Assembly (NCBI GenBank): GCA_033675265.1
Contig: JAUJYZ010000760.1
Location: forward strand, 155,513 to 219,512
Direction: 5' to 3'
DNA: 64,000 bases
DNA from: Actinostola sp. cb2023
Lineage: Eukaryota > Cnidaria > Anthozoa > Actiniaria > Actinostolidae
The position numbers and the translations under genes are program-made. The notes below the pieces were generated by a model that was given only the letters and a program-made list of their open reading frames with translations, was not told the DNA's origin and searched no databases. Positions 14,515 through 50,206 of the stretch are shown here, in pieces. Positions within the stretch are counted from its first letter, which is position 1; each line of letters begins with the position of its first letter.

Positions 14515-14700
14515 GAATACGAATCAAAGTCTTACAATTACATGTACGGATCAAAGTCTTAATTGGAATCAAAGTCTTACGAATCAAAGTCTTACGGTAT
14601 ACGAATCAAAGTTTTAATAGGAATCACAGTCTTACGAATCAAAGTCTTAATTGGAAGTCGAATCAAATTCTCACAACTGGAATCAAAGTCTTACACTGAG
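14515..14700 (+). repeat. minisatellite in the BEL leader
   Basis: About nine imperfect copies of a 14-16-bp unit resembling GGAATCAAAGTCTTA lie between the primer-binding site and the gag start. They add length variability to the untranslated leader, where packaging signals would be expected. Confidence 0.85.
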
Positions 14701-14708
14701 TTGAAATC

Positions 14709-16145
14709 ATGTCGTCTGCCGATCTTACCCGGAAAAGGAAGATACGTGGAGGTCACAAGGGATCGTTGACGCAAATCTTTGGAGTTGTTGACGAAATAAT
14801 GGATCTTGAAGACCCAGCAGGGCACGAGCCAAAGCTGAGACAACTAATGACAACGTTGGAAGAAAAGCTAAGTCTACTGCATACACTCGACGATGAAATT
14901 TTAGCACTCGTCAAAGACGAAGACATAGAAGGAGAAATTGAAGAAGCGGATCGTCTGAGAGGAAACATACGACACTACATGTTCAGAATCGAAGAGAAGT
15001 TGAGTTTAATTCGTAGCCAAGCCAAGATAACGAATAAACAGCATTCACCTGAATCACACGAAATTCCTGTTGTTGTTGTAACTCAACCTTCAAGTGGTGA
15101 AAATCAACCGTCAACTTCTGAAGATAATCAACAATCTTCAAGTGCTGATCAACAATCTTCAAGTGCTGATCAACAATCTTCAAGTTCTGATCAACAATCT
15201 TCTAGTTCTGGTAATCAACACATGTCTTCAAGTTCAACTTTACCAACGTCCAACCCTATTATGACCAAGGGTCCTCAAGTAAAGTTACCCAAGCTTGACC
15301 TCAAGAAATTTAGTGGTGATTTAAGCAAATGGCAGTCCTTCTGGGATACTTATGAAGCCTCAATACATAATAACCAGCACTTGGCATCTATTGATAAGTT
15401 TAATTATTTGATATCACTACTACAAGGAGTGGCCTCTGATGCAATCGCAGGATTATCAATCACCAATGCTAACTACATGGAAGCTATAACAATATTACAG
15501 AGAAGGTTTGGAAACAAGCAACAGATAATTAATCGACACATGGAAATTATTCTCAATGTCAATCCTGTGAGGTCAGGATATCAAGTAAAGGAATTGAGAC
15601 AGTTGTATGACACTATAGAATCACATGTACGTAGTCTGAAGTCTCTTGGTGTACCTTCAAGTTCTTATGGAACTCTCTTGTCATCTATTGTTATGAATAA
15701 GCTCCCACAAGAACTAAAGTTATTGATTAATCGAGAAGTGAAAGGTGAAGAGATGGAGCTAGAGCGTTTGTTAAAGGTGTTTGAAGCTGAGCTGGAAGCC
15801 AGAGAGCGTGCTGGAGCAAATACATCTAATACGTCTAATACGTCTACAAGTAAACCTTCTACTACTAACCGTGCTACACGTCTACCCACGGCAGCAACAT
15901 TAGTATCAGGTGCCACCAGCAACAGTATCACATGTTCCTATTGCAAACAAGCACATACTTCCAATAGTTGTAATGTGGTAACAGATGTAGCGGCAAGAAA
16001 GAAGGTATTGATGAGGACTGGAAGATGTTTTATTTGCCTCAGAAGGGGTCATATTAGCAAAGAATGTAGATCCAAAGGGAAATGTATCAAGTGTAACGGA
16101 CTTCATCACATCAGCATATGTAACCAAGGAAAAAAAAAAAAATAA
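14709..16145 (+). CDS. gag: BEL gag region (prematurely terminated)
   Basis: 478 codons encoding the structural protein that coats the element's RNA in particles. Seen: an N-terminal helical region, a Q/S-rich tract (residues about 130-175) built from near-identical 24-bp DNA repeats, and a DUF1759-like gag core from LPKLDLKKFSGDLSKWQSFW (about residue 195) to about 340. Then zinc knuckles with the spacings of CFICLRRGHISKEC (CCHC) and CIKCNGLHHISIC. The chosen ATG is the first after the leader. The frame ends in KKKK-stop only because an A-rich insertion interrupts it; immediately after the insertion the downstream frame is the natural continuation into the protease, as in BEL elements where gag and pol share one frame. 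Confidence 0.9.
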   Translation: MSSADLTRKRKIRGGHKGSLTQIFGVVDEIMDLEDPAGHEPKLRQLMTTLEEKLSLLHTLDDEILALVKDEDIEGEIEEADRLRGNIRHYMFRIEEKLSLIRSQAKITNKQHSPESHEIPVVVVTQPSSGENQPSTSEDNQQSSSADQQSSSADQQSSSSDQQSSSSGNQHMSSSSTLPTSNPIMTKGPQVKLPKLDLKKFSGDLSKWQSFWDTYEASIHNNQHLASIDKFNYLISLLQGVASDAIAGLSITNANYMEAITILQRRFGNKQQIINRHMEIILNVNPVRSGYQVKELRQLYDTIESHVRSLKSLGVPSSSYGTLLSSIVMNKLPQELKLLINREVKGEEMELERLLKVFEAELEARERAGANTSNTSNTSTSKPSTTNRATRLPTAATLVSGATSNSITCSYCKQAHTSNSCNVVTDVAARKKVLMRTGRCFICLRRGHISKECRSKGKCIKCNGLHHISICNQGKKKK

Positions 16146-16184
16146 AAAAATAAAAATAAAAATAAAAATATGTAACCAAGGAAA
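16116..16184 (+). repeat. A-rich insertion flanked by a 17-bp duplication
   Basis: ATATGTAACCAAGGAAA occurs at 16116-16132 and again at 16168-16184. Between the copies is a 35-nt tract of A-runs broken by T, (AAAAT)n-like. The net gain of 52 bp shifts the reading frame and creates the stop at the end of gag. The form (duplicated target, A-rich tail only) resembles a maximally truncated target-primed retroposition. Confidence 0.8.
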
Positions 16185-16260
16185 GGACACTGAACAATCA
16201 CAAGGACAGCATAAGCCTACAGCAAATAACACACAGTTCAATAGCTCCCCATCTACATCA

Positions 16261-19200
16261 ATGTATGTCAGTGCAGGAACCCCAATACTGCTTCAAACAG
16301 CCCAAGCACAAGCTTCAGGAGAAAACTCAACTGTGAATATGAAGGTCAGAATTATTCTAGATGGGGGGAGTCAAAGATCCTATATCGTCGACAAGGTGAG
16401 GTCAGCCTTGAATCTACCCACTGAACACACAGAACCCATGCTTATCCAAGCCTTTGGGTCAACAAGTGAGAAACCCATTGACTGTCATGCTGTTAAGCTT
16501 GACCTTAAAACCCAAGATGGAGGGAGTATCAATATATCAGCATATTCTGTGCCCTTTATTTGCACTCCAGTCATTAAACAAACAGTCTTAGAAGCTCAAG
16601 AGAAGTATAATCACCTAGCCAACTTAAAGCTGGCAGATCCCATTCTGGGGAACAATGATGCACAAATTGACTTACTGATTGGATCTGATCAGTATTGGAA
16701 GCTAGTGACTGGATGTGTGATTAAAGGGGAGAGTGGCCCCACAGCAATTCATACTAAGTTGGGTTGGGTTCTATCTGGACCCATGGAGGATGACATGCCC
16801 AATGACAGGGCCACCACCAATCTAGTGACACAGACCCATACTCTACAAGTAACAAGTAGCAATGTAGCACCAGCACATCTACCCACGGATGATGTAAACT
16901 ATGATCTTAAGGCCTTCTGGGATCTAGAATCTCTGGGTATCATCAAACCAGAGAAAACAGTGTACAGTGAATTTATTGATACAATCTCATTCCATGATGG
17001 AAGATATGAAGTACATCTACCTTGGAAGGACCCAAGACCAGTCCTTCCAGACAATTATGAAACTAGTCTGAAACGTTTAAATGGCTTACTTAAACGACTG
17101 AGACAAGAACCTGACATATTACTAGAGTATGATGCAGTTATTAAAGACCAGATTAAGAGAGGGATTGTTGAAGTAGTGGATACACCGGAACCTGGAGAAG
17201 AAGGTAAAGTCCATTATTTACCTCATCATGCAGTTATCAGGAAAGATAAAAGTACAACAAAGTTGCGGGTAGTTTATGATGCTTCGTGCAAGTCTACTGG
17301 ACCCTCCCTCAACGATTGTCTTTATACTGGCCCAACGATGTCACAAAAGATAATGGAAATTATTCTACGATTTAGATCTCACAAACTAGCCTTAGCAGGT
17401 GACATTGAAAAGGCATTTCTGAACATATCTGTAGTTAAAGAAGATAGAGATGTTCTCAGATTTCTTTGGATTGACGATGTAAGCAAGGACACACCCAACA
17501 TAGTGGTGTTGAGATTCACCAGAGTTACATTTGGAGTCACTTCAAGCCCATTCTTGTTAAATGCAACTCTGAACTTTCACATTGAAAGATATAGACAACA
17601 AGATTCAGAATTCGTAGAAACTATGACACGTGCAACCTACGTTGATGATGTTAGCACAGGAGCTGAAACCGTAGACAAGGCTTATGAACTGTACTTGAAA
17701 TCTAAAGTCAGATTAGCTGAAGGAGGATTCAATCTCAGGAAATTTGTTACTAACTCTGCAGAACTTAGACAACAAATAGAAGACAATGAAGCTAACATAG
17801 AGAAGTGCATGAATTCTACGTCAGAGTCACATAACTTAAGTGTGGACACCCACACTGATGAGACACACCTTAACCAGGTACAGTCTAGTGAATGCACAAC
17901 AGAACACAAGATTCTTGGAGTACAGTGGAATTTCAATGAAGACAACTTTATTTATGATCTGAACTCTCTAGGAATGTATGCTAGTAACCTAGAGCCTACC
18001 AAGAGGAACGTGGCTGCAGTTGCTGCAAAATTCTATGACCCTATTGGATTCTTATCTCCTGTCACTCTGCAAATCAAGTTGCTTCTACAAGAAATCTGCA
18101 TAACAAAGGTCGGATGGGATGAAGAATTGAATGATGAATTGAAACAGAGATGGAAGAGAATAGTTGAAAGTTTGTTGAACTCGGAAACAATTCTGCTAGA
18201 TCGTTGCTACTTTAGTGAAGTCAAGGAGCAAGTTGTGTCTTGCAATTACCATGGCTTTTGTGATGCCTCTAACCAAGCATATGCAGCTGTTGTGTACTTA
18301 CAAGTCAGGACTACTACTAGTACTTATGTGAAGTTTGTAGGATCCAAAACAAGAGTAGCCCCACTAGACAAACAGACCATCCCACGGCTGGAACTTGTGT
18401 CAGCACTCATCTTAGCTAGGCTTATCGTAACGATAACAGAAGCGTTGGAGAAGGAAGTTCCGGCAGACAGTATCAATTGTTGGACTGACTCGACCGTAGC
18501 TCTTTATTGGATAATACAAGTGGAAAAGGAATGGAAGCAGTTCGTCCAAAATCGAGTTCGTGAGATTAGGACACTTGTACCTGCCCATGCGTGGAAGCAC
18601 TGTCCAGGTATTGAAAACCCTGCAGACATACCCTCACGTGGAATGAGTGCTCCAGAGCTATCATGTTGCTCAACTTGGCATACGGGTCCAGCATGGCTCA
18701 GTGAATCCAACTTAGAACCTACTCTAGATGAGAACTCATCGATGGATCCACCAGCGGAATGCTTAGATGAAATGACTTTGAAGAAACGAAACCAACAGGT
18801 TTCGCTACTCGTGACAGAAGAAAGCATCCACATCAGCGAATTAATCAAGTGTGACAGATTCAGCAGTTTGCAAAGACTTTTAAGAGTCACCGCCCTAGTC
18901 ATTAAGTTTGTCAGAATCCTTAGATCAAGAGTTAAGAACAGAGAGACTATGAACAAGTCTACTAGAGCTCTCAGGTCAAGGACAAGGGAATTCAGTAAGG
19001 AGGAAGAAATAAAGACCATCACAGAAACCGACATAACAGAAGCAGAGTTGTACTGGATAAAAGAAGTTCAAGATGTCATGACAAGGAACCATCAGTATAA
19101 GTACTGGAACCAAGAGTTTGGAGCATTCACTGATGAACAAGGAGTCATTCGATGTGGGGGAAGAATATCTAATGCTCAAATACCGTATGGAACTAAGCAC

Positions 19201-19497
19201 CCAATACTACTCGATGGCAACCACCAATATTCTATACTTCTGATGAAGGATTATCACTTGAAAGTGATGCATAACGGAGTAAAAGAAACACTTACAGAAT
19301 TGAGAACAAGGTTCTGGTTGGTCAAGGGAAGACACACAGTGAGAAAGATTATCCATAATTGTGTCATTTGTCGTAAGTTTGAAGGGGAGACCCTACAATG
19401 CACCAATGTCACCACCATTACCAGAGTCGAGAATCAAGGAATGTCCACCATTCACATTTACTGGAATAGACTTTGCTGGACCTTTATACGTGAGTGA
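16261..19497 (+). CDS. pol: BEL protease-RT-RNase H-integrase N-terminus
   Basis: 1,078 codons from the first downstream ATG; the true protein continues from gag upstream. Order: aspartic protease (DUF1758) with LDGGSQRSYI at residues about 32-41; reverse transcriptase with LRVVYDASCK, LALAGDIEKAFLNI and the catalytic YVDD at about 17638-17649; a Peptidase_A17-like stretch with FYDPIGFLSPVTLQIK; RNase H with GFCDASNQAYAA and CWTDSTVALYWI; then the integrase HHCC zinc region ending CVICRKFEG. The frame leaves the conserved path near 19385, where a GGGG run has one base too many, and terminates in unrelated residues at 19497. Replication enzymes of the element, acting in cytoplasmic particles. 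Confidence 0.92.
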   Translation: MYVSAGTPILLQTAQAQASGENSTVNMKVRIILDGGSQRSYIVDKVRSALNLPTEHTEPMLIQAFGSTSEKPIDCHAVKLDLKTQDGGSINISAYSVPFICTPVIKQTVLEAQEKYNHLANLKLADPILGNNDAQIDLLIGSDQYWKLVTGCVIKGESGPTAIHTKLGWVLSGPMEDDMPNDRATTNLVTQTHTLQVTSSNVAPAHLPTDDVNYDLKAFWDLESLGIIKPEKTVYSEFIDTISFHDGRYEVHLPWKDPRPVLPDNYETSLKRLNGLLKRLRQEPDILLEYDAVIKDQIKRGIVEVVDTPEPGEEGKVHYLPHHAVIRKDKSTTKLRVVYDASCKSTGPSLNDCLYTGPTMSQKIMEIILRFRSHKLALAGDIEKAFLNISVVKEDRDVLRFLWIDDVSKDTPNIVVLRFTRVTFGVTSSPFLLNATLNFHIERYRQQDSEFVETMTRATYVDDVSTGAETVDKAYELYLKSKVRLAEGGFNLRKFVTNSAELRQQIEDNEANIEKCMNSTSESHNLSVDTHTDETHLNQVQSSECTTEHKILGVQWNFNEDNFIYDLNSLGMYASNLEPTKRNVAAVAAKFYDPIGFLSPVTLQIKLLLQEICITKVGWDEELNDELKQRWKRIVESLLNSETILLDRCYFSEVKEQVVSCNYHGFCDASNQAYAAVVYLQVRTTTSTYVKFVGSKTRVAPLDKQTIPRLELVSALILARLIVTITEALEKEVPADSINCWTDSTVALYWIIQVEKEWKQFVQNRVREIRTLVPAHAWKHCPGIENPADIPSRGMSAPELSCCSTWHTGPAWLSESNLEPTLDENSSMDPPAECLDEMTLKKRNQQVSLLVTEESIHISELIKCDRFSSLQRLLRVTALVIKFVRILRSRVKNRETMNKSTRALRSRTREFSKEEEIKTITETDITEAELYWIKEVQDVMTRNHQYKYWNQEFGAFTDEQGVIRCGGRISNAQIPYGTKHPILLDGNHQYSILLMKDYHLKVMHNGVKETLTELRTRFWLVKGRHTVRKIIHNCVICRKFEGETLQCTNVTTITRVENQGMSTIHIYWNRLCWTFIRE

Positions 19498-20404
19498 AGG
19501 AAAGAAGAAACCAAGCTACAAGGTATGGATTTGTCTCTATACGTGCTGTGTAACAAGAGCAGTTCATCTGGACATTGTTCCAAACATGACACCAGAAGCC
19601 TTCATCAGAAGCCTGAGACGCTTTGCAGCCAGGCGAGGTCTACCGTCCAAGATTATATCAGATAATGGAACAACCTTTCAAGCAGCTAGTAAGATGTTAA
19701 TTAGTCTTATGAACGACCCTAGCGTACGTCGACATTTAGCAGAGGAGAGAATAGAATGGTCATTCAACTTACCTAGAGCCCCATGGTGGGGAGGTGTCTT
19801 TGAGAGACTAATAAAGTCAACCAAGAGATGTTTAAAAAAAACAATGGGAAGAGCAAGCCTCACATACGAGGAACTCCTGACTACAGTGATTGAAGTTGAG
19901 GCGATACTCAACTCAAGACCGTTGTCATACGTGACCGTTGATGACATTGATGAACCACTGACGCCATCTCACTTACTTCATGGCCGAAGATTATTGAACT
20001 TACCAGATGCGAACATGAAAGCAAACTTGAACTTTGACACAGATGTATCAACATCTGACTTGAGCAAAAGAATGAAACATTTAAGCTGCCTAATGAACCA
20101 TTTCTGGCTCAGATGGAGAAACGAATATTTGTTGGAGCTGCGAGAATCACACCGTCACTCTGCTAAGAAAAGAGGTAAAGCAGATACTGTAAAGATTGGA
20201 GATGTTGTTATTGTTCATGATGACGATAAACCCAGAAGACTTTGGAGACTTGGAAGGGTGGTCAAATTAATTGCTGGTTCTGACAACCGTGTGCGCGGAG
20301 CTGAAATCATGGTCAAGTCTAAGAGCAGAAGACCAACAACTATGAAGAGACCGTTAAAGAAGTTATACCCATTGGAAATAAATGACAATGTAGATGGACA
20401 GTGA
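19388..20404 (+). CDS. BEL integrase core and C-terminal domain
   Basis: Continues the integrase in another frame after the shift near 19385. It can be read as open from an upstream ATG at 19361, but that start is an artefact. Catalytic triad visible: D in TGIDFAGPLY, D in IISDNGTTF and E in PWWGGVFERL, followed by ILNSRPLSYV and a DUF5641-like C-terminal region with WRLGRVVKL. This enzyme joins the element's cDNA to host DNA. The stop at 20402-20404 is followed by about 125 bp of untranslated sequence and the purine tract. No envelope frame is present. Confidence 0.92.
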   Translation, partial: RPYNAPMSPPLPESRIKECPPFTFTGIDFAGPLYVSEGKKKPSYKVWICLYTCCVTRAVHLDIVPNMTPEAFIRSLRRFAARRGLPSKIISDNGTTFQAASKMLISLMNDPSVRRHLAEERIEWSFNLPRAPWWGGVFERLIKSTKRCLKKTMGRASLTYEELLTTVIEVEAILNSRPLSYVTVDDIDEPLTPSHLLHGRRLLNLPDANMKANLNFDTDVSTSDLSKRMKHLSCLMNHFWLRWRNEYLLELRESHRHSAKKRGKADTVKIGDVVIVHDDDKPRRLWRLGRVVKLIAGSDNRVRGAEIMVKSKSRRPTTMKRPLKKLYPLEINDNVDGQ

Positions 20405-27569: not shown

Positions 27570-28978
27570 TTAGAAAATAGATATCTTCCAAAATCTCTCA
27601 TCAAAATAAATCCTCTGCTTAAAGAAATCTATCTCAGTCCACACACAAAAATCACACCATTTAAGACCACTTACACCCATTTGCCCTTGAATTTGATAAA
27701 GATAGTTGTGATTTTTCTTCAATTCAATACCTTCTGATGTCTGTTTTAAACAGAACTGTTTGTTATCCTGAATTATTGTGTTTATATCTTTATGCGATCC
27801 ACTATCAGGACATTTGGCCTCAAAAAGACCATAGCCACTGTATTCAGCTACCGAGGGGTCATAAATAACACCATCTGGAGATGCTCCAAGCCAGCAGAAT
27901 GCTGGGTTAATGACCAATCCAGATTTATACAGTTTTGTACCTGCTGCCTTTCCATGATCAAGTTATTCTTTAGCAGCCCTTGACTTATTTGCCAACCCAT
28001 ACTTCATTGCTGGAGTTTGTATTGACTTGCCTTTAAATAGTTCTTTTAACAACTTTTCACTGACTTCAGCCTTTCATTTGGAAACCTGTCCAAATTGAGA
28101 TGCAGTTATGCGCTTTGCTCTTTCAATTCTCCATTTCACACTACCTGATTGTTCCCTGGTGTCGACTTCTAGTTTAGCTGCTTCTTTTGGAGACAATGTG
28201 ATAAACTTCAAATCTATATTTTGATATCCATATTTATATTCACTCCATTCACCAAGAACAGGTAATTCAAATGTTCAATTGATGGTAGTTGGTAACTCAA
28301 AGGGGAACCCATGGGATATTCACCAAAGTTAGTTTTTACAGACTTCTTTGAATCATTGTTGATACTGTTAATTGTAGCATTAGGGCATGTCTTTTTGAAG
28401 TTTTTCTGGAATTCTTCTAATACTTCTTTTGTATCCTGGGCATTTTTCTTTGTCCGAGAAATCGGGTTATAAAGGCAAAGTGATGCACATCGTGTAGTCT
28501 TTTTATCTAACACTGGTTTTGCGAAATTTACCTGCATCCAAGGTTGAGGATTAATTTTGGAACCTCTCGGTACGTGCCACTGTTGTGGTTTTGAAGTACA
28601 AGCCAAGATGTCCTTGTCGTCCATCGAACTCAGAACTGCATACGATAAAGCTGACAAATGATGACAGTGTCCTTGTCCAGCCTTACAAGAGCACTTCCTG
28701 AATACTATGTTGGCTTCAGAGCCATTGTATTCTATAATAATCTTCATTTCGTGGGGTTTCTCAGATTTGCACATTGAGTGAAAGCACTTCCCTTTCAGTA
28801 CACAACATTCCGCTGCTTCGTCAAATGTAATCATAAGATCGTGAATATAATCCTCCAGGAAGAATGCCTGAGCTCTACTATCTGTTTTCTTTGTCTTGAT
28901 AAATTCTTCAAGGCATTTCTTCAAGGATATTTTCAATTCTTCCGTCGCCATCTTTGTGTGTGTTTTGCAAACTTGCAA
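27570..28978 (-). pseudogene. SWIM zinc finger plus YqaJ-like nuclease protein, main body
   Basis: From the ATG at 28978, 254 codons are open and contain a SWIM motif (C96, C98, C105, H107 in FRKCSCKAGQGHCHH). After a frame change near 28260 the conserved path continues (WRIERAKRITASQFG), crosses two in-frame stops (about 28077 and 27977) and reaches the YqaJ/lambda-exonuclease-type core: LGASPDGVIYD, GLFEAKCP and NHNYLYQIQGQMGV. These supply the acidic D and E-x-K residues and the downstream glutamines. Known: YqaJ-fold proteins are metal-dependent DNA exonucleases, and relatives accompany some eukaryotic DNA transposons. Three disabling changes make this a pseudogene. Upstream exons are at 32513-33063, beyond the Harbinger insertion. 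Confidence 0.85.
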
Positions 28979-29659: not shown

Positions 29660-30217
29660 TTAACTTTTCTTTTCTTCTTTCTTTGGTTGTTGTGGCACAT
29701 TCTCCTCCCAACTAATATCTTGCTCTGAGTTGAACTGCTCACTCGTCGTTTCCAAGGCTTCATGACCATCTGACTGTTCTCCATCTAAGCTATTCGTGCT
29801 TAGTTGCGTTGTTGACGATTCACCAGAGTCTATTCCCCCGTCTATTGACGTCAGTGAAGGGTTTTCTTTACCAAGAATTTCGGTAACCATATCATCGTTT
29901 TCGCTCCACTCGATTGCACCGCCACCAGTCTTCATTTTCTTGTGATACTTTGCTTTCGTTGCTGAAGAAACGTCTTCCCACTTCTTTTTAATTTGTTCTT
30001 TCGCTCTTTTGGGGTATCCAGCTGCTGCAAGTTCCTCCCTAATTTTTAGCCATGCATCTGTCTTCATGTGAAAAGTTAATTTTGGGCTTAGTGCGCCGAA
30101 CAACGTCCCTTTAGATTTTCTAATCTTGTTGAGTAGAAATCTCACTTCATCTTGTTTGAAGTTCGGTGCTCGCTTTCGTGTTGGTCCATCATCACTTTCA
30201 AGCTTTCTTTTCGACAT
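29660..30217 (-). CDS. Harbinger Myb/SANT-like DNA-binding protein
   Basis: About 185 codons, starting MSKRKLESDD (an ATG two codons further upstream, at 30223, is also in frame). Residues about 15-90 form a Myb/SANT-like trihelix domain: NFKQDEVRFLLNKIRKSK, AWLKIREELAAAGYPKRAKE and IKKKWEDVSSATKAKYHKK. The C-terminus is acidic and serine-rich. Known: in PIF/Harbinger elements this partner binds subterminal DNA and helps bring the transposase to the nucleus. The frame is intact although its neighbour transposase is broken. It is transcribed away from the transposase, with the 74-bp array between their starts. Confidence 0.88.
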   Translation of the reverse strand: MSKRKLESDDGPTRKRAPNFKQDEVRFLLNKIRKSKGTLFGALSPKLTFHMKTDAWLKIREELAAAGYPKRAKEQIKKKWEDVSSATKAKYHKKMKTGGGAIEWSENDDMVTEILGKENPSLTSIDGGIDSGESSTTQLSTNSLDGEQSDGHEALETTSEQFNSEQDISWEENVPQQPKKEEKKS

Positions 30218-30421
30218 CTTCACTTACAAATTCTTGGTAGAAAAAAACCTTGAGTAGATACTTGATTCGTACCTTTATATATGCTTCATTCAAATGCCCA
30301 AGTATTGTTATTCTGATGAGAGTCACTGTTTTTATAATTATGCGATTGTTATATAACCTTGAACCGAAAAAGCGCCCGGTTAAACGCTTTGATATTTTTG
30401 AACTTTATTGTCAGTTTTGAA

Positions 30422-30825
30422 AGGTTATGTCATCGCATTATGCAACGAAGCTTTGGACATAAATTGTTCTATTGTACAATTAGGGGGGTTATTTTGAGGT
30501 TATGTCATCGCATTATGGAACGAAGCTTTGGACATAAATTGTTCTATTGTATAATTAGGGGGTTATTTTGAGGTTATGTCATCGCATTATGCAACGAAGC
30601 TTTGGACATAAATTGTTCTATTGTATAATTAGGGGGTTATTTTGAGGTTATGTCATCGCATTATGCAACGAAGCTTTGGACATAAATTGTTCTATTGTAC
30701 AATTAGGGGGTTATTTTGAGGTTATGTCATCGCATTATGCAACGAAGCTTTGGACATAAATTGTTCTATTGTACAATTAGGGGGTTATTTTTGAGGTTAT
30801 GTCATCGCATTATGCAACGAAACTA
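30422..30825 (+). repeat. 74-75-bp minisatellite inside Harbinger
   Basis: Unit starts AGGTTATGTCATCGCATTAT at 30422, 30497, 30571, 30645, 30719 and 30794; copies are nearly identical. It lies in the shared promoter region between the two element genes. Confidence 0.93.
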
Positions 30826-30906
30826 TTCTTTATAATTTGACATTTTTATACAAGTGCAATGCTTTTGATGTAGTTGAGAAGGTAGTAAACGTTTCACTCT
30901 TCCAGC

Positions 30907-31988
30907 ATGTTATACGATCTCCACCGTTTCCAAAATTTCCAGCATATAGCAGAACTTCATGAAAGGATTGAACAGAGACATTTACGTAGGCCTAGAGTAT
31001 TCAGAGACAGAGAAAACCCATTAGATGTCTTATCTGATGATGCCTTTTTCAAAAGATTTCGAATGCCCAGAGCAAAGTTCTATGAACTTCTCCAGTATGT
31101 TCACGATGATCTCGAACACAACACTCAACGAAACCATGCACTTCTTCCCTCTCAGCAACTCATGATAGGCCTACGTTTTTTTGCGTGCGGATCTTTTCAA
31201 CAGGTTATTGGTGATACGATAAATGTACATAAAAGTACTGTTAGCCGTACTATCCAAAGAGTTATAACAGCAATTCTCAAGCTTAGGAAGGAGTAGTATA
31301 TATTGGCCCAGTGAGCCAGAATGCGCAGCAATTGCTTTAGAATTGCATGAACTGCACCATTTTCCGTGCGTCGAGGGATTTATAGATGGAACTCATATAA
31401 AAATCGTGAAACCAAAACATCATGAAGTGGTGTTTGTAAACAGAAAAGACTTCCACTCTATCAATGTTCAAATATGCGGGAATGGAAGATTAATGATTAC
31501 AGATGTTGTGGCAAAATGGCCAGGATCAGTCCACGACTCGCGAATTTTAAAAACCTCAAGTCTTTATGACAAGTTCAAGCAACAGCAATTACCACGTTTG
31601 CCTAATGGTGTGATTCTGGGTGACAGTGGCTATCCATTGTTAACATGGCTTTTAGTCCCCATTGTGGAATATCCAGCTATGACGGCATCCGAGAAGCTAT
31701 ATAACAAGACCCACAGATCTACACGCTCTATGATAGAGAGAATTATAGGTATCCTAAAGAGACGTTGGGCGTGCTTAAAGGAGCTCAGAATGACCTGCCA
31801 AGTGTTGTGAAATAACTGTCGCCTGTTGTATTTTACACAATTATTGCCGTGATCTTCCAATTAATGATGAAGAGGGACAGTTAGACGACATTGGTCTTGA
31901 TGACTGTTCTAATAATGGCCAAGAAACTGAGGAAACTGAGGAAGGAAAACAACAAAGAGCAGAGTTCATTAGATCTTTCTTTTCTTAA
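30907..31988 (+). pseudogene. Harbinger DDE transposase (HARBI1-like), frameshifted
   Basis: The first frame (30907-31296) holds the N-terminal part with a helix-turn-helix-like GDTINVHKSTVSRTIQRV. After a frameshift near 31290 the catalytic part follows in another frame: D in EGFIDGTHIKI (about 31385), D in ILGDSGYPL (about 31622) and E in MIERIIGILKRRW (about 31735). A second shift near 31808 leads to a C-terminal segment with VACCILHNYCRDLP, typical of HARBI1-like proteins, with an acidic tail ending at the stop at 31986-31988. The DDE triad is present but the protein cannot be made from this copy without frame changes. Family assignment is firm. Confidence 0.9.
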
Positions 31989-33063: not shown

Positions 33064-33380
33064 CTGAAATTAAATATTGATAATAAGATTAGTTCCCAAT
33101 TTTGGTTACTATTGGCCAGCTTTCATACAAGTTCATAGAAAAGCATTTTGGACATTCATATCCATTAACGTGGGTGTAGATTTTGATGGATCCTAGGACC
33201 CCAAAATATACACCTGTAGTGTCGATTTCTATAAAGTATATTTGGGGCAATAAATTTCATACGTCTCCGCATACTTGTCCACAAATTCTGAAATATAATA
33301 ATTAAGTAAATAAGTATAAGTATGTTTCTTTAAAATAATAAGTAAGTATTTTGCCATTATATACTCCAGAGGAAGATTAA

Positions 33381-33538
33381 AGTGTTTATGAAACCAAATT
33401 TTAAGACTGTATTTGATTATAAAATAATACAATTCATGAGTTTCTGATCATCATGGTTCTTTTTTGTTGAAATTCAGTTATAGAAAATATTTGTTTTTGT
33501 CCTCGGAAAATCGTCACTCAGCGTCAAAAAGTGTCCGG
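33381..33538 (+). repeat. left terminal inverted repeat (158 bp)
   Basis: Matches 36885-37014 and, full length, 38453-38611 in reverse complement. Its inner part, with GTCACTCAGCGTCAAAAAGT, lies just upstream of the THAP gene. Confidence 0.92.
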
Positions 33539-33629
33539 TCTATTTGCACGGTCAAACGAACGATGTTACGTCACTGCGTGGACTCGTCGCCAGCTACGTA
33601 CTTCCAGCTCATGTTGTACTGTAAACGTG

Positions 33630-35510
33630 ATGGCGGAGTCGAAAAGGCGAGGCGGAAGATATTGTGTAAATTGTATTGTAAAAACAGTTCCAATACTCAA
33701 AACATTTCTTTTCATAAATTCCCTAAAGATGGAAGAAGATCGGCGTGGGTTCGTTTCGTACAAAAGCACAGGCCGGGTTGGCAACCAAGTGACTCTTCAG
33801 TACTATGCTCTGTTCATTTTCATGCTGAATGTTTTGTCCAAAGACCGGATATTAGTTTGGATAATAGATTTAGAACCAAACCATGGCTTAGCAAAACTTC
33901 AATCCCTTCAATTGACATGGTGGGTACGCCAAAATTAAGTACGACACTTATAACAGCACGAGAAAAACTTGATCATTCTCTAGACCAACTGCCACATAAT
34001 TCATATATTGAGGTTAGTATATATCAATTGTGAGGTATCTAATTGTAAGTTTATTTATTTATTTCATTTTCATAGGTACCTGTGAATATTTTAAACTGCA
34101 CTTAATACTCAATAAAACAAGTATTCTAAATGATATCAAGAAGCTTTCCTCTGATGCACAAACTAGTTGCTTGGAGGGTTTCCACTCAACATTGAATCAG
34201 TGGCATCCCAAGATGATTTGTTTCTCTTGGCTTGGGACTCATTGCAGGTAAGAATTTGATTTCATGATATACCAGGGACGGTGGAGACAAGGAGGCTCCC
34301 CACTTTTAGTAAGAAATATTAATTTTAAAGGAGCAATGTAAAACAATATATTAGATGTACAATGTAAGATGTAAGGTCCCAAAACCAGTCCCCCCCCCCC
34401 CCCCCCCCCCAACCACACACACACACTTAAAAATGCTCCGCCGTCCCTGTATATTATATACAACCATATTCTATTACATGCAATCTGGTAGACAATTTCA
34501 AGGAAACAAAATGCTCCTACTTACCAAGTATCAATCTTATTTAAACTGTAGACACATCCTTGCAAGTTTGCATTTTAATGAAAACCTTCATAGAATGACA
34601 CAAGTGTCAAAGGATGGCAAAAGATACATCAATGTTACTTACCCAAAGTACAAAATGGGTGAGGAAGTTGTGCGTGACATAGCTGTGAAACCTACATACG
34701 GTGAGTAAAAACACATATTGTATCAATAGAGATTACAGCACAAAGCTCCCAACTATGACCACCGTTAATGTATCCGCATACTTTTGTCTTGCCATCGGCT
34801 CCAATTAGCGGTTAGATCAGAGAAAAGATAAGGCAATCCTGCAAAGCTGATTGGATAATGGCCAAGACGAAAGTATGCGAATACATTATAGGTGGTCATA
34901 GTTGGAAGCTTCGCACTGTAATAGATGTAGCAAATAACTTGTGTGACTATGCATCAACCATTGAATAGTTGTTAAATTATCAATCATAGGTTATGTCGAA
35001 AACATGAAAAAAACTACTGTTCAGTTTGACCAGAGACACATTAAACAAAATAATGAGTGAATATAAAACCAAAGTTCCTGGACCATTAAACAGTAAATTC
35101 CCACAGAGAAGAAGCAAAGATGAGGCCATGGTTCGCTACAATAAGAGAAAAGAAACAATTGTAACTTTGGTACCAACAGGTAAATATGAAAACAAAATGA
35201 AACTCTAACATGTATTATGTTTATTCAATTGTCTCATAATTCAGGTATTTTGTAGAAGGACCCTGACATTTTGACTGCAAGCTGCTAGTTTTCTTCAGGC
35301 GATCGATGGTGTAGACTGATTTGTGTTTTGTTTATGATTTTTTATGTTGTAGCCAAGCAACAAGACAAACTTCTTCAAAATTGTTCAATCAAAAGGAAAT
35401 CTGATGATTCTAATCTACCACCGCCAAAGAAAAAAACCAGAATGTGCAAGAAATGTAATAACCCAAAACTAGGACACCCAAAGAATAAATGCCCTACTGG
35501 AGATATTTAA
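33630..35510 (+). pseudogene. THAP-domain/zinc-knuckle protein of the TTAA transposon
   Basis: Five exons: 33630-34012, 34076-34247, 34552-34700, 34990-35179 and 35353-35510, with GT/AG boundaries (e.g. CAG|GTAAGA at 34247). Exon 1 encodes a THAP zinc finger: YCVNC, a HKFPKDG..R..WVRF core, LCSVHF and a final KPWL..TSIPS segment. Exon 2 reads CLEGFHSTLNQWHPKMICFS, exon 3 HILASLHFNENLHRMTQ, typical of the C-terminal part of THAP-containing transposases, and exon 5 ends with a CCHC-type knuckle MCKKCNNPKLGHPKNKCP. Disabling changes: a frameshift near 33685 inside the THAP domain, a phase mismatch at exon 2, and an A-run shift near 35010. I see no catalytic core between exons 1 and 2; it may have been deleted. 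Confidence 0.8.
34390..34425 (+). repeat. poly-C tract and CA run
   Basis: About 21 consecutive C followed by a short (CA)n, in an intron of the THAP gene. Confidence 0.95.
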
Positions 35511-36209
35511 AAGAAAAGGACTGTGAAAATGCATTTATCAATAAATTCATTATAAGTTGTAAACAAAATATTAAAATCCACTTAGCTAGCACAGTCGCTA
35601 GCACAGGTTTAGCTGTTATTGGCATCTCGTTCTTGCCCAGAGTGGTAGCCTTTAGTAGTTAGGGTAGGGTATCTACTCCTAATGTCATGATATATGCAAG
35701 CTGGAAGAGGTCTAGTATTCTCCCAGCCCATGTATCCACATATCTATCTGATTAACCATCTATAAGCCACTGCCTTAATAACCTAGAAGGTACAAAATTA
35801 CACTTATTACTTAGAGAGAAAAACCTACACAATTAATGCCAAGGATAAATAAATGGGAACTAGACAGAAATGCTTTGTACAATATTAGAATGATTTCACA
35901 TGACTCACTTAGATTCATAATATGGTTTGTGTGGACACTTGAACGAACACTTCAAGATCTACTCAGATCATTATTTTCCCAACTGTCTACTGCCTCGTAA
36001 TGTCTCAAATGAAACGCAGAGTTCAAATACACCAAGTGATCAAAATAAGTTTTATTTCCAATCAATTATCTCAATCGATAATTTACAGTATGCATTAAAA
36101 AAAAATCAAGGTGTTCACCGTTCAAGTGTCCACACTGTAAGTGCGTTGTATGTTCTTGTTTTATTACGAAATAATATTAAACGTGAAAATAAAAACGATA
36201 GATCAGCAA
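35511..36209. other. intergenic region between the two convergent transposon genes
   Basis: Contains AATAAA-type signals for both genes (plus strand near 35540; minus strand near 36045). No further ORF is supported. Confidence 0.5.
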
Positions 36210-36767
36210 TCAATTCTTACTCGTTTTCAGCATGTTCTCGTTTACGGTAGTGTCTACCTTCTTATCGGTGAACAGAGGCCCAACATGCTCAAGTACTGTT
36301 TTGTTGGTCATCGCTTGGTAATCAGGATGTGTCAAAATACATCCAGCATTTAGGCCTTCAAAAGTAAAGCGACCTAAGCAATTGGCAATTTCCTTACAAC
36401 AGCGAAATTCTGCACACAAAACCAAACGATCGTCCTTACAATTGCCACAAGAACACCTGCACGAAAGCAAGAGATAGTCAGACAAGTACAAATATGTAAA
36501 GATTTACAAATAAACTTTTATTCAATATAATACTTACCAATTTTGTAGAGGTACTATTTTCTCAAATCTTTGTCTCAAGTTATGCTCTGTGAGTCCATCT
36601 TCATCGCTCTCACTGAGAGCTTGTTCTGCCACATCAGTATGATTTGTTGCGGCTAGAGGTTGGTCTTCGTAAGGCCTGAAGAAGCTTTCAAAATTAAAAT
36701 TGTTTTCCGTCTGATCATCATCACTAGCTTCACTTTCGTTCGTGGATTCTGATTCCAGGTCAGACAT
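36210..36767 (-). CDS. P2X7-ballast-domain protein carried by the transposon
   Basis: Two exons, 36538-36767 and 36210-36456, with clean GTAAGT and TTCGTGCAG sites; the sum is 477 nt with no stop, giving 158 residues. Exon 1 (from MSDLESESTNESEASDDDQ) is acidic and disordered. Across the junction the motif WCSCGNCK is formed, followed by CCKEIANCLG, CILTHPDYQAMTN and KTVLEHVGPLF. This is the signature order of the cytoplasmic 'ballast' domain known from vertebrate P2X7 receptors (WCxCGxC, CC.E, a C-x-T-x-H-P-like block, then VL). No transmembrane segment or P2X channel domain is present. The conserved arginine/tyrosine C-terminal block of the ballast is missing, so the domain is partial. Function unknown; it could be a DNA- or protein-binding accessory of the transposon. 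Confidence 0.8.
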
Positions 36768-36884
36768 GATTTTAAAACGCAAAAACTACATGTACAACTG
36801 TACTAGAAACAATAACAATGGCCGACAAGAATTACCACACTCCTCGCAGTGACGTCATCGCAATGCCGTGCTAGGTCCCAGGCC

Positions 36885-37014
36885 CCGGACACTTTTTGAC
36901 GCTGAGTGACGATTAACTGAATTTCAAACAAAAAAGAACCATGATGATCAGAAACTCATGAATTGTATTATTTTATAATCAAATACAGTCTTAAAATTTG
37001 GTTTCATAAACACT
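36885..37014 (-). repeat. right terminal inverted repeat (130 bp, internally deleted)
   Basis: Complement of 33381-33538 minus 28 bp corresponding to the ATTTGTTTTTGTCCTCGG region. Confidence 0.92.
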
Positions 37015-37546
37015 TTAAACAATTTCAATAAATGTTTCGCGATTGGTCAGTAAAAACTTGGAATATAGTTGTTGACACAGTGAATATCATATTGTTGGTG
37101 GACTTGTTTGTTTAAGTAGAGTATTATGACACACTAAATTGAGCAGCACAAAAGCTGTTTATCTTATATACAAAGACATGACATAGCCGACTGTAGCTGT
37201 CATAATGTCTCACCTCGTCACATTAACCTTGATTGACGCGGTGCATTGGTCATACTTGCAAAAGCTTGGTTTTCGTTCAATAACTTTTATAATTTACGTT
37301 CGAGTGATGTGTGACAAAGGTTGATGCCGTAACAAGTTTCACAGATTGACTTAATGTTTCCACGTTTGGAATGTTATTCCAATGATCTTGCAACTTCTTC
37401 TGGATCTTAGAGGAAGACCTGCTCTATAACATTAATCAAGTTCATCTTTTACCCTTCTAAGGACAGATCTCTCCCATGGCAGACGTTTGACTAAGTAACC
37501 CTTCAGAATCAGCTTCCCATCCTCGCTCTCTGAAAGGTCACTCTCA

Positions 37547-38390
37547 TCAGAGCTGGTGTAGCTTACTTGCATTCTGTAGGAATGTAGTTAACATGGCAAA
37601 GGTATTTTCAACCATAGGATTGGTTGTTTCAGGTACATTTAATAAGTTGATAACAAATTTGTGATTGATTTCCTCTTCCATATGAACAAAAAAAAAGCTC
37701 AAACTTTTTGGGATCTTTTTCAATTTCATTGAGAAACCTTAGGGTAGACAGACGTTTCCGAAATTGATCAAGGGCAGCCTTATGTTAAACAACTGTTGCA
37801 TGTAGTATTTAACAACTGTTGCATGTAGAATATCAATGACTACATTATTATATATTTGTTGTTTTCCTGTGTTGTAAAGCAAAGGAAAATTATTATCTAA
37901 ATATTAGAATGGGTAAAATATTAAAATGGGTAAGCCCAAACTATGTAGAAAATTTCATGCTTTATCATAAAACGCAATTTCTTCAAAAAATTGCACATAT
38001 CTGCTGGACTAATAGTACCTTCTTTATGTTTTGATCATCTTTGTGGCTTAGTTCACTGTCGTCATCCCCTTCATCATGTGACTAATGTGTAGACATTTCC
38101 TTCCTCTGGGTCTTTGAGTTTTAAGGAAGATAGATCCAAACCAAATGACTTTGCAAACCACAAGCCACATTTTGCTCTTTCTTGAAAAAGCTTCAGTTTT
38201 CTTTTTGCCTGCTTTTCAGCAACCTCTCCTTTTTTCCAGAGTTATTCAGACCTGATGCTTTCTCAAGTTTGTTAATATAACCTTCTAGGGTCTTGTTTTG
38301 TAGCTTCTCAAATTCAATATTTTCGTCCCTTTGTTTACTGATCTCACTGTCTAATAATTTGTGTCTGCAAATTATTATAATGATTTACGA
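37547..38390 (-). pseudogene. unrecognised protein-coding remnants, copy A
   Basis: Minus-strand frames read LDSEISKQRDENIEFEKLQN (coiled-coil-like), LKLFQERAKCGLWFAKSFGL, and near 37560-37730 MEEEINHKFVINLLNVPETT followed by AMLTTFLQNASKLHQL. The last block is preserved in copy B, where an extra upstream stretch is also open; here an A-run length change shifts the frame. I do not recognise the family. Stops and frame changes between blocks suggest a decayed multi-exon gene. Confidence 0.5.
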
Positions 38391-38400
38391 ATGACCCAAC

Positions 38401-39966
38401 TACCACACTCCTCGCAGTGACGTCATCGCAATGCCGTGCTAGGTCCCAGGACCCGGACACGTTTTGACGCTGAGTGACGATTTTCCGAGGACAAAAACAA
38501 ATATTTTCTATAACTGAATTTCAAACAAAAAAGAACCATGATGATCAGAAACTCATGAATTGTATTATTTTATAATCAAATACAGTCTTAAAATTTGGTT
38601 TCATAAACACTTTAAACAATTTCAATAAATGTTTCGCGATTGGTCAGTAAAAACTTGGAATATAGTTGTTGACACAGTGAATATCATATTGTTGGTGGAC
38701 TTGTTTGTTTAAGTAGAGTATTATGACACACTAAATTGAGCAGCACAAAAGCTGTTTATCTTATATACAAAGACATGACATAGCCGACTGTAGCTGTCAT
38801 AATGTCTCACCTCGTCACATTAACCTTGATTGACGCGGTGCATTGGTCATACTTGCAAAAGCTTGGTTTTCGTTCAATAACTTTTATAATTTACGTTCGA
38901 GTGATGTGTGACAAAGGTTGATGCCGTAACAAGTTTCACAGATTGACTTAATGTTTCCACGTTTGGAATGTTATTCCAATGATCTTGCAACTTCTTCTGG
39001 ATCTTAGAGGAAGACCTGCTCTATAACATTAATCAAGTTCATCTTTTACCCTTCTAAGGACAGATCTCTCCCATGGCAGACGTTTGACTAAGTAACCCTT
39101 CAGAATCAGCTTCCCATCCTCGCTCTCTGAAAGGTCACTCTCATCAGAGCTGGTGTAGCTTACTTGCATTCTGTAGGAATGTAGTTAACATGGCAAAGGT
39201 ATTTTCAACCATAGGATTGGTTGTTTCAGGTACATTTAATAAGTTGATAACAAATTTGTGATTGATTTCCTCTTCCATATGAACAAAAAAAAGCTCAAAC
39301 TTTTTGGGTTCTTTTTCAATTTCATTGAGAAACCTTAGGGTAGACAAACGTTTCCGAAATTGATCAAGGGCAGCCTTATGTTAAACAACTGTTGCATGTA
39401 GTATTTAACAACTGTTGCATGTAGTATATCAATGACTACATTATTATATATTTGTTGTTTTCCTGTGTTGTAAAGCAAAGGAAAATTATTATCTAAATAT
39501 TAGAATGGGTAAAATATTAAAATGGGTAAGCCCAAACTATGTAGAAAATTTCATGCTTTATCATAAAACGCAATTTCTTCAAAAAATTGCACATATCTGC
39601 TGGACTAATAGTACCTTCTTTATGTTTTGATCATCTTTGTGGCTTAGTTCACTGTCGTCATCCCCTTCATCATGTGACTAATGTGTAGACATTTCCTTCC
39701 TCTGGGTCTTTGAGTTTTAAGGAAGATAGATCCAAACCAAATGACTTTGCAAACCACAAGCCACATTTTGCTCTTTCTTGAAAAAGCTTCAGTTTTCTTT
39801 TTGCCTGCTTTTCAGCAACCTCTCCTTTTTTCCAGAGTTATTCAGACCTGATGCTTTCTCAAGTTTGTTAATATAACCTTCTAGGATTTTCGTCCCTTTG
39901 TTTACTGATCTCACTGTCTAATAATTTGTGTCTGCAAATTATTATAATGATTTACGAATGACCCAA
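38401..39966 (+). repeat. tandem duplication copy B
   Basis: Nearly identical to 36833-38400. It contains a full-length 159-bp version of the terminal repeat at 38453-38611 and TTAA at 38612-38615, but no transposon body. Confidence 0.95.
39144..39950 (-). pseudogene. unrecognised protein-coding remnants, copy B
   Basis: Same blocks as 37547-38390. Here FLNEIEKEPKKFELFFVHME is in frame with the conserved segment ending KLHQL (67 codons). Unknown family. Confidence 0.5.
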
Positions 39967-48549: not shown

Positions 48550-48958
48550 CCTTTTTGAATTACGAGTAAGTCGGGTTCTACATCTATCCGCCAAACCCGT
48601 CCTTCATCGCGGACACAGTGAATTGAAAGGGGTATGGTTTGCCTGTGTTTTCCTTTAATAATATTAATAATATATATTTCTTAAAAACGCACCTAACGGG
48701 AGTCTCGATGCTTTTTACAATATAACAAATATGTACTGAAAAAAAAAATCAAAAAAAAAATCTATATCTATATATATGTATGTGTATAATATATTACAAG
48801 AGAGGAAAGAAAAATATATACTCATCTGCATATATTAACTAATCCCTAGGGATCATATTTACAATTCAAATGATATATGAATAGTGACGCCTTATAATTG
48901 TAACCACACATGATGGGGCAACTTTCCTGTTGCCTTTACCCAAGCGTACATATCTATC

Positions 48959-50206
48959 CTAAATATACTGTCTGTAGGCTGCTTTTCTGAAAGAACGAGT
49001 TGTATTATCTTCACTGTCATTTTGAATGTCTGCTCTGTTCACTATGCATAATGGTAACACATCTGGATCAAGACAAAGCTTAGAAAAACGTGTTTGAATA
49101 GTAACACATTTTCTATTTCCACAACACTTGTTTTCCACTTCCTGGGGCATATAAATACAGTTTTTTCATTTACACCACTCTAGTAATGGACCCTCCCTTG
49201 ATGGTGGTGTAGTAGTTGTCATAGAAGCAGCACTGCTTTCCATTGAGGATAAATGAGTTCCCAGTATGGAATAGTCGTGTTCAGGGTTGTCGTCATCTAT
49301 TTCCTGTATAAGCAGAGAGTCTATGAACTCCATGGATCCAATTCCTTGTTGCAAAGCTTTTATTACTAAAGACTTAGCCGTATCCTCATCTAGTGTGAGG
49401 ATAATAATTATTTATGACAATAATAAGAACATATTTAGTATTGAGAAAAAATATACAATGTAAACTACTTTCGAGTACAATGTAATTGTGCTATTACCCA
49501 AATAAAGTCATCTTTATTATGTATATCAATATAATAATTGACAATATTTTTAATTTGCATAAGTAAGTAAACGAATAAATTAGAGATCACTCGGGTGATA
49601 CCTTGACAGGAGCATTCTCTTTACTTTGTTCCTCTTCTTCGGATTCCCTTGTCCCCGATTCACCGTGTGAATGTGCATTGGTGTCATTTCTAACAGCATC
49701 AGTTGAACTTTCCTGATAACACAATAATCATTCAAACATCAAGATTGGAAGGACAAGGAAAATATGTTGAGCCAACGATCAAACATGATCATAGCAGCCT
49801 CGAAAGCGTACATGTACATGTCCAGATTGATAAATAAAAGCAAGATAAGTTAGTTTTAGTTAAGTAACAGAATGCTGTAGTTTATAATGTATGGAATGAA
49901 GAACTATACCTTGTTTTTACATTGCTTTCTCGTCGTCACGTACCTGCATTCACTAGAACAGTGTCTGTTGTTTGTCTTGCAAATGCAACCAGAACGTTTC
50001 TCTGTTGACCTAGTGGAGCATGTAGATTTGCAAGAGCAGGATATCGATAGTGCCTACAGAAAGAAGTACACAAATTATTCGAAATCTGTTTAGTGTTTTA
50101 TATTATTTGAGTTCACACTACGAAAACCGATCTTCCTAGAGCACGTAAAAGCGTATAAATTATTTAGTGAGAAGCTTACCTCGTTTGTAATATTCTCTGA
50201 CGCCAT
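48959..50206 (-). pseudogene. cysteine-rich plus P2X7-ballast-domain gene with an in-frame stop
   Basis: Exons: 50180-50206 (MASENITNE), about 49944-50053 (SCSCKSTCSTRSTEKRSGCI..., a CXC-like cysteine-rich module), 49602-49712 (acidic, ESSTDAVRNDTNAHSHGESG) and 48959-49384. The last exon ends with a P2X7-ballast domain: EWCK, then a TGA at 49166-49168 exactly where WCxC needs its second cysteine, then KNCIYMPQEVENKCCGNRKC, TRFSKLCLDPDVLPLCIV and a C-terminal SFRKAAYRQYI. The domain is complete to the R..AYR.Y end known from vertebrate P2X7 tails. No channel domain. The exon 2 to 3 junction needs an alternative donor three bases downstream to keep phase. One nucleotide change separates it from an open gene. 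Confidence 0.75.

Follow-up and report, generated by a model that had tools for sequence, protein, structure and literature searches.

A probable Kol0-type Kolobok transposon copy, decayed and non-autonomous, with a broken KolX/ballast gene in the sea anemone Actinostola sp.

We analysed a 64,000-nucleotide stretch of the genome of the sea anemone Actinostola sp. cb2023 (contig JAUJYZ010000760.1 of GenBank assembly GCA_033675265.1, positions 155,513 to 219,512 of the forward strand; hereafter the window, numbered from its first letter), which holds a DNA transposon copy at 33377-37018. Two convergent genes lie between its ends: a transposase remnant on the plus strand and, on the minus strand, a gene for KolX, a protein of the P2X7 C-terminal ballast family. 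The element and its parts are listed below by window position, with reference to an Oculina transposase (P0006, 881 residues, with a THAP domain) and to two close relatives of the ballast product, P0002, from another contig of the same assembly, and P0003, from a metagenome contig of 1509 bases.

33377-37018, both strands: decayed, non-autonomous Kolobok DNA transposon copy, very probably Kol0-type, 3642 bp, with TTAA ends, inverted ends, transposase remnant and KolX/ballast gene.
33377-33538, plus: left inverted end, 162 bp including the TTAA, starting TTAA then AG.
33630-33922, plus: transposase 5' part with start methionine and THAP domain (PF05485; tblastn of P0006), with a frame break between P0006 residues 17 and 23.
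33923-34062, plus: junction region, where P0006 residues 109-676 (568 residues) have no counterpart.
34063-34248, plus: transposase exon holding, by motif, the last E of the triad (LEGFHS at 34171-34188), 59-76% identical to 9/9 relatives tested.
34547-34702, plus: transposase C-terminal exon (RHILASLHFNEN...).
34732-34922, no strand: palindromic insert, with arms of 60 bp (87%), within an intron of the transposase gene.
34990-35178, plus: transposase C-terminal exon with a frame break at an A-run near 35005.
35354-35510, plus: last transposase exon, with CCHC zinc knuckle and stop; a like tail in 4/9 aligned relatives.
35609-35782, minus: KolX/ballast exon 3, second half (AYRWLIR*ICGYMG...LPAC...DIRSRYP, the asterisk a stop), start approximate; in-frame TAG at 35746-35744, own stop TAA at 35611-35609.
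35929-36135, no strand: short stretch within intron 2 of KolX, bounded by inverted ends of 17 bp.
36221-36456, minus: KolX/ballast exon 2, zinc-binding half, which beyond FTDK leaves the frame of P0002 and P0003; end inferred, the donor GTAAGA starting at 36220.
36538-36767, minus: KolX/ballast exon 1, acidic, serine-rich N-terminus, ending ...PLQN plus two bases of a W codon.
36885-37018, minus: right inverted end, 134 bp, without 29 nt of the left end.
38398-39964, no strand: second tandem copy of 36830-38397 (element right end plus 1379 bp of flank).

The element is flanked by TTAA at 33377-33380 and 37015-37018, the 4-bp target site duplication of Kolobok elements, and its termini read TTAA-AGTG...CACT-TTAA, with the Kolobok arrangement 5'-RR / YY-3'. 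Its inverted ends agree at 104 of 105 bp with a single 1-nt indel and contain a perfect 92-bp inverted match, far above chance on a simple probability; inward of them, an extra perfect 30-bp inverted block pairs 33509-33538 with 36885-36914. The main difference between the ends is the 29 nt present in the left and missing from the right. The intron stretches 34732-34922 and 35929-36135 are probably nested inserts. A preliminary description of this locus, prepared from the letters alone, had reported the TTAA and long inverted ends, a THAP domain and a two-exon 158-residue minus-strand product, and all three are borne out here.

The plus-strand gene encodes a THAP domain in a Pfam scan (PF05485, E=3.3e-12), and its downstream exons, searched as a single typed query that was X-padded to admit full-length relatives, matched 23 of 437 candidates at E<=1e-5. 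An organism is named for 16 of these relatives, comprising 13 cnidarian (stony corals, an octocoral, anemones and a jellyfish included), 2 lancelet and 1 anchovy sequences, and for 7 none is named. One relative, P0012 (QZH41_013093, partial), comes from the same assembly and is 58% identical over 73% of the query. When P0006, one of nine relatives, was aligned to the element by tblastn, residues 1-17 and 23-108 mapped to 33630-33910 in two different frames and residues 677-842 to 34063-35154, with nothing for residues 109-676. GDGRxDSMGH, DRH, D-x-W-H, HxxH..CxH and LEG are present in 9/9 aligned relatives; in these proteins the stretch deleted here holds the first four, and the retained part holds LEG with the last E. 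The relatives' motifs agree with published accounts of Kolobok transposases (PMC9587614, PMC6004289), which give DDE, C/DxxH and H2CH features; of these just the last E is left in the window copy, the catalytic D and E residues being assigned by motif. Pfam scans of six relatives found THAP in three (P0006, P0013 and P0015) and, in three (P0012, P0015 and P0016), a match above the cut-off for PF20700, a model of Mutator-like transposases; P0011 had neither. A CCHC knuckle tail like that of the window occurs in P0010, P0013, P0015 and P0016, and the ends of the other aligned relatives differ or are cut short. The remnant carries two frame breaks, one inside the THAP domain and one at the A-run near 35005. 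These alignments identify the plus-strand THAP/zinc-knuckle gene as a Kolobok-type transposase with about 568 internal residues lost; judged by motif, the lost stretch includes the first two catalytic aspartates, and the THAP domain, last catalytic E and tail are kept. Five relatives used as queries gave no site at E<0.1 for a further transposase of this kind in the window.

On the minus strand, the 158-residue product of exons 1 and 2 is identical (100%) to GenBank model QZH41_019131 from Actinostola sp. cb2023, and P0002 is 96% identical over 91% of its length. Near its end, the frame of exon 2 departs from both close relatives found, P0002 and P0003. These two end in HAENE, which matches the window DNA in their frame when it is read through the GTAAGA donor, and their gene models therefore appear to run into the intron. 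Further relatives were collected with a probe that combined P2X7 and a typed consensus; 389 of 914 candidates matched at E<=0.001, and the best 120 of the 389 listed included 117 new relatives. A family hidden Markov model (HMM) of 28 relatives, run against the window in six frames with stops masked, gave three sites at E<=1e-3, namely element exon 2 (profile positions 74-131), element exon 3 (152-197 of 200, E=2.8e-6) and a site at 49.3-48.9 kb, and both ballast halves occur in order inside the element. With a C-terminal HMM, exon 3 scored 25.4 bits, against a best of 10.2 among 200 two-base-block shuffles of the element. In tblastn against the window with the C-terminal halves of 113 of the 117 new relatives, 88 of them matched exon 3 at E<=0.01 and 65 at E<=0.001 (best E=9e-8, at 35767-35633). 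The in-frame TAG of exon 3 replaces a nearly invariant W of the relatives, and its phase, checked by hand from the sequence, is compatible with neither exon 2 frame unless there is a further indel. The ballast family has seven conserved cysteines (PMC9587614), and the DNA has a codon position for each of them: exon 2 holds six (C78, C80, C83, C96, C97 and C116 of P0001) and exon 3 the seventh (in LPAC); exons 2 and 3 lie in different frames, and as the gene stands no single product has all seven. Read in this way, the KolX/ballast gene is a broken gene of three exons, and the annotated 158 residues are its zinc-binding half only. Once exon 3 was found, we gave up reading the 158-residue protein as a natural short form.

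The damage to both genes bears on how the locus was first interpreted. The preliminary description had taken the ballast protein to be intact and had suggested that the partner may be an accessory of the transposase; with the THAP gene as that partner, this amounts to a functional two-gene element with a free THAP/zinc-knuckle accessory and a 158-residue ballast cargo. Such an element could account for the GenBank model of the 158-residue product and for a further model, on a different contig of the assembly, that matches 91% of this product at 96% identity. The alignments contradict it in large part: the THAP gene corresponds to the two ends of a full transposase, lacks the middle, carries two frame breaks and is a remnant of the transposase itself, and the ballast gene has a frame change in exon 2 and continues into an overlooked third exon (about 35782-35609) with a stop. 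We regard a functional two-gene element as very unlikely. Truncated P-element proteins act as repressors of full-length elements, and by analogy the deleted, THAP-bearing transposase might repress full-length relatives, with the short KolX zinc half as a modulator. A deletion that spares the THAP and C-terminal parts would suit such a regulatory derivative, as would a close relative of the ballast product in the same assembly; the frame breaks inside the THAP domain and near 35005 speak against it, and we consider it improbable.

Kinship of the minus-strand product to the P2X7 ballast is supported by profiles of the family. An alignment of 30 relatives matched the three window-type proteins with a profile-profile probability of 97.7 (E=1.5e-12, residues 29-134). 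A 39-row profile was built from these three proteins and 36 relatives, of which not one bears the name of a mammalian P2X7 or exceeds 34% identity to human P2X7 by much; it was searched against the PDB, and all four matches at E<=1 are P2X7 (best 5.8e-15, residues 466-594). The P2X7 ballast (PF20478) and nanor-like/ZCD proteins (Rump et al. 2020, PMC7016195) share W-C-x-C-x-x-C, E-x-x-C-C and C-I with the product, and A-Y-R...P-x-C...I-R with exon 3. Unlike P2X7, the window product has no channel domain, and its ballast is divided between two exons and broken by a frame change and a stop.

The features of the element point to the Kol0 lineage of the Kolobok superfamily. Kol0 elements (Kolobok-1_XT; PMC9587614) share with it the TTAA target, RR...YY termini and a second, ballast-family protein, KolX, whose gene is broken here, and share with its relatives a THAP-bearing DDE-type transposase; the XKol (Kolobok) transposases of Xenopus (PMC6004289) have THAP, DDE-type and H2CH-type motifs in common with the relatives of the remnant, and XKol ends begin with AG, as do those of the element. 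Unlike Kol0 elements, which encode a transposase and KolX, the window copy has no catalytic core and neither of its genes is whole; unlike XKol, it keeps the THAP domain, last E and tail only. Its KolX is also divergent (P0002 is 17-28% identical to the 36 other aligned relatives) and is split over three exons, a new detail given here for this gene. An assignment to piggyBac, for which profiles were covered by the general Pfam scan only, was rejected: the remnant matches THAP/Kolobok-type proteins, and the AG ends and RR termini set the element apart, RR termini being a feature that distinguishes Kolobok from piggyBac (PMC9587614). A host ballast gene fortuitously caught between transposon ends would be consistent with the short annotation, without other domains, that is common among database ballast proteins (PMC7016195). 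KolX is published as the second gene of Kol0 elements (PMC9587614), however, and the same assembly has a close ballast relative on a different contig, which makes host capture extremely unlikely in our view.

We conclude with high confidence that the element is a decayed, internally deleted copy of the Kol0 kind of Kolobok. Several points weigh against this conclusion. The transposase core is absent here, and the Kol0 assignment therefore rests on relatives and on KolX rather than on a tree that includes Repbase references; the reading also rests on a single genomic copy. The 158-residue product, itself without the second half, matched PF20478 with E=0.0024 and 18.2 bits over 51 of 192 profile positions, below the Pfam gathering score of 23.5 bits, and neither this single product nor a three-protein profile found P2X7 among PDB sequences at E<=10. 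The probe used to collect the relatives that enter the later profiles itself included P2X7 and a hand-typed consensus. Structure prediction for P0002 was of low confidence (predicted local distance difference test (pLDDT) 57.2, predicted template modelling score (pTM) 0.23) and gives no support from the fold. The profile match to the P2X7 ballast proposed at the outset is strong for profiles of the family, weak for the single protein against Pfam and absent against PDB sequences for the single protein or the three-protein profile.

In the Kolobok superfamily, the THAP domain of the transposase binds the element ends and the element is cut and pasted into TTAA. The parent of the window copy would have worked in this way, encoding a THAP-DDE transposase and a convergent three-exon KolX with a full P2X7-type ballast domain. 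With the transposase core lost and KolX carrying a frame change and a nonsense codon, neither protein would now be made in full. Good inverted ends and TTAA are kept, and movement after the deletion would have been possible only in trans, by the transposase of a complete relative. P-element transposase has a built-in nucleotide-dependence, and it is conceivable, if a long shot, that KolX is a guanine-nucleotide and zinc cofactor that gives Kolobok transposition a like dependence as a separate protein, and that the guanosine site of P2X7 was inherited from it. If this were true, the zinc half and the nucleotide-contact half would be two separable modules of this element's KolX, with the intron as the boundary between them. 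Rump et al. 2020 (PMC7016195) report that only two contact residues of the guanosine site are conserved across their whole invertebrate set. KolX is an accessory of the element, and a full-text search by its name, which found one paper (Kojima and Bao 2022), gave none that assigns it a biochemical role.

The right end of the element has been duplicated together with its flank. Positions 36830-38397 and 38398-39964 are direct tandem copies; aligned over 1597 columns, they show 6 mismatches and 3 gap openings. Of the two copies of the end, the inner one is without the 29 nt, and the left end matches the end at 38615 better (163 bp, 98.8%). Position 38615 was considered as the true right end of a longer element; 36830-38397 is repeated as 38398-39964, and the end at 38615 is therefore read as a copy of that at 37018. 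The duplication reflects either a recent rearrangement at a transposon end or two haplotypes wrongly joined during assembly; the genome paper on an Actinostola sp. gives a heterozygosity of 0.9% (PMC10803348).

A second, more decayed ballast-family gene lies 12 kb from the element on the minus strand (48878-49318; WCK*KNC...CC...CVT...AYRQYI*...PSCVVTIIRR, HMM E=9.6e-15) and has two in-frame stops. No long inverted ends surround it among the best 25 of 26 inverted pairs at 46.5-53.5 kb.

That the ballast is a transposon gene which a P2X gene could capture, as suggested in the preliminary description, is right in kind and already in print. Kojima and Bao 2022 (PMC9587614) report that KolX of Kol0 Kolobok has the ballast fold and that the fusion of a P2X4-like gene with KolX gave rise to P2X7. 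Apart from one review that also turned up for Kolobok and P2X7, theirs was the only paper that our full-text literature searches on this link found. Rump et al. 2020 (PMC7016195) described the ballast domain across animals in a main text that, in the parts available, does not name transposons; two Ixodes proteins in that account join the ballast domain to others, one of them written TAHP, perhaps for THAP. The window copy is a decayed, non-autonomous member of this known kind, and is a further case, from a sea anemone, in line with the published view of the P2X7 ballast as a transposon protein. It is dead and so supplies no working example; what it offers is a KolX exon layout on record, together with the arrangement of convergent genes within one element. 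The new details are the three-exon KolX, the internal deletion, the tandem duplication of the right end with its flank and the second decayed ballast-like locus 12 kb away. The locus is also a warning that broken transposon genes are listed as short ballast proteins in genome annotations.

The remainder of the window holds other mobile-element sequences. A BEL/Pao-type long terminal repeat (LTR) retrotransposon at 14700-20404 is recognized by the domains DUF1759, Peptidase_A17, RVT_1 (below cut-off) and Integrase_H2C2 in a domain scan of 14700-19494. At 29660-31810, a Myb/SANT-like gene (minus) adjoins a DDE_Tnp_4 transposase piece (plus), a pair that we take to be Harbinger-like, and an open reading frame with a YqaJ domain lies at 27570-27962 (minus). 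In the genome of a deep-sea vent Actinostola sp., DNA repeat elements are reported to make up 25.5% of the assembly (PMC10803348).

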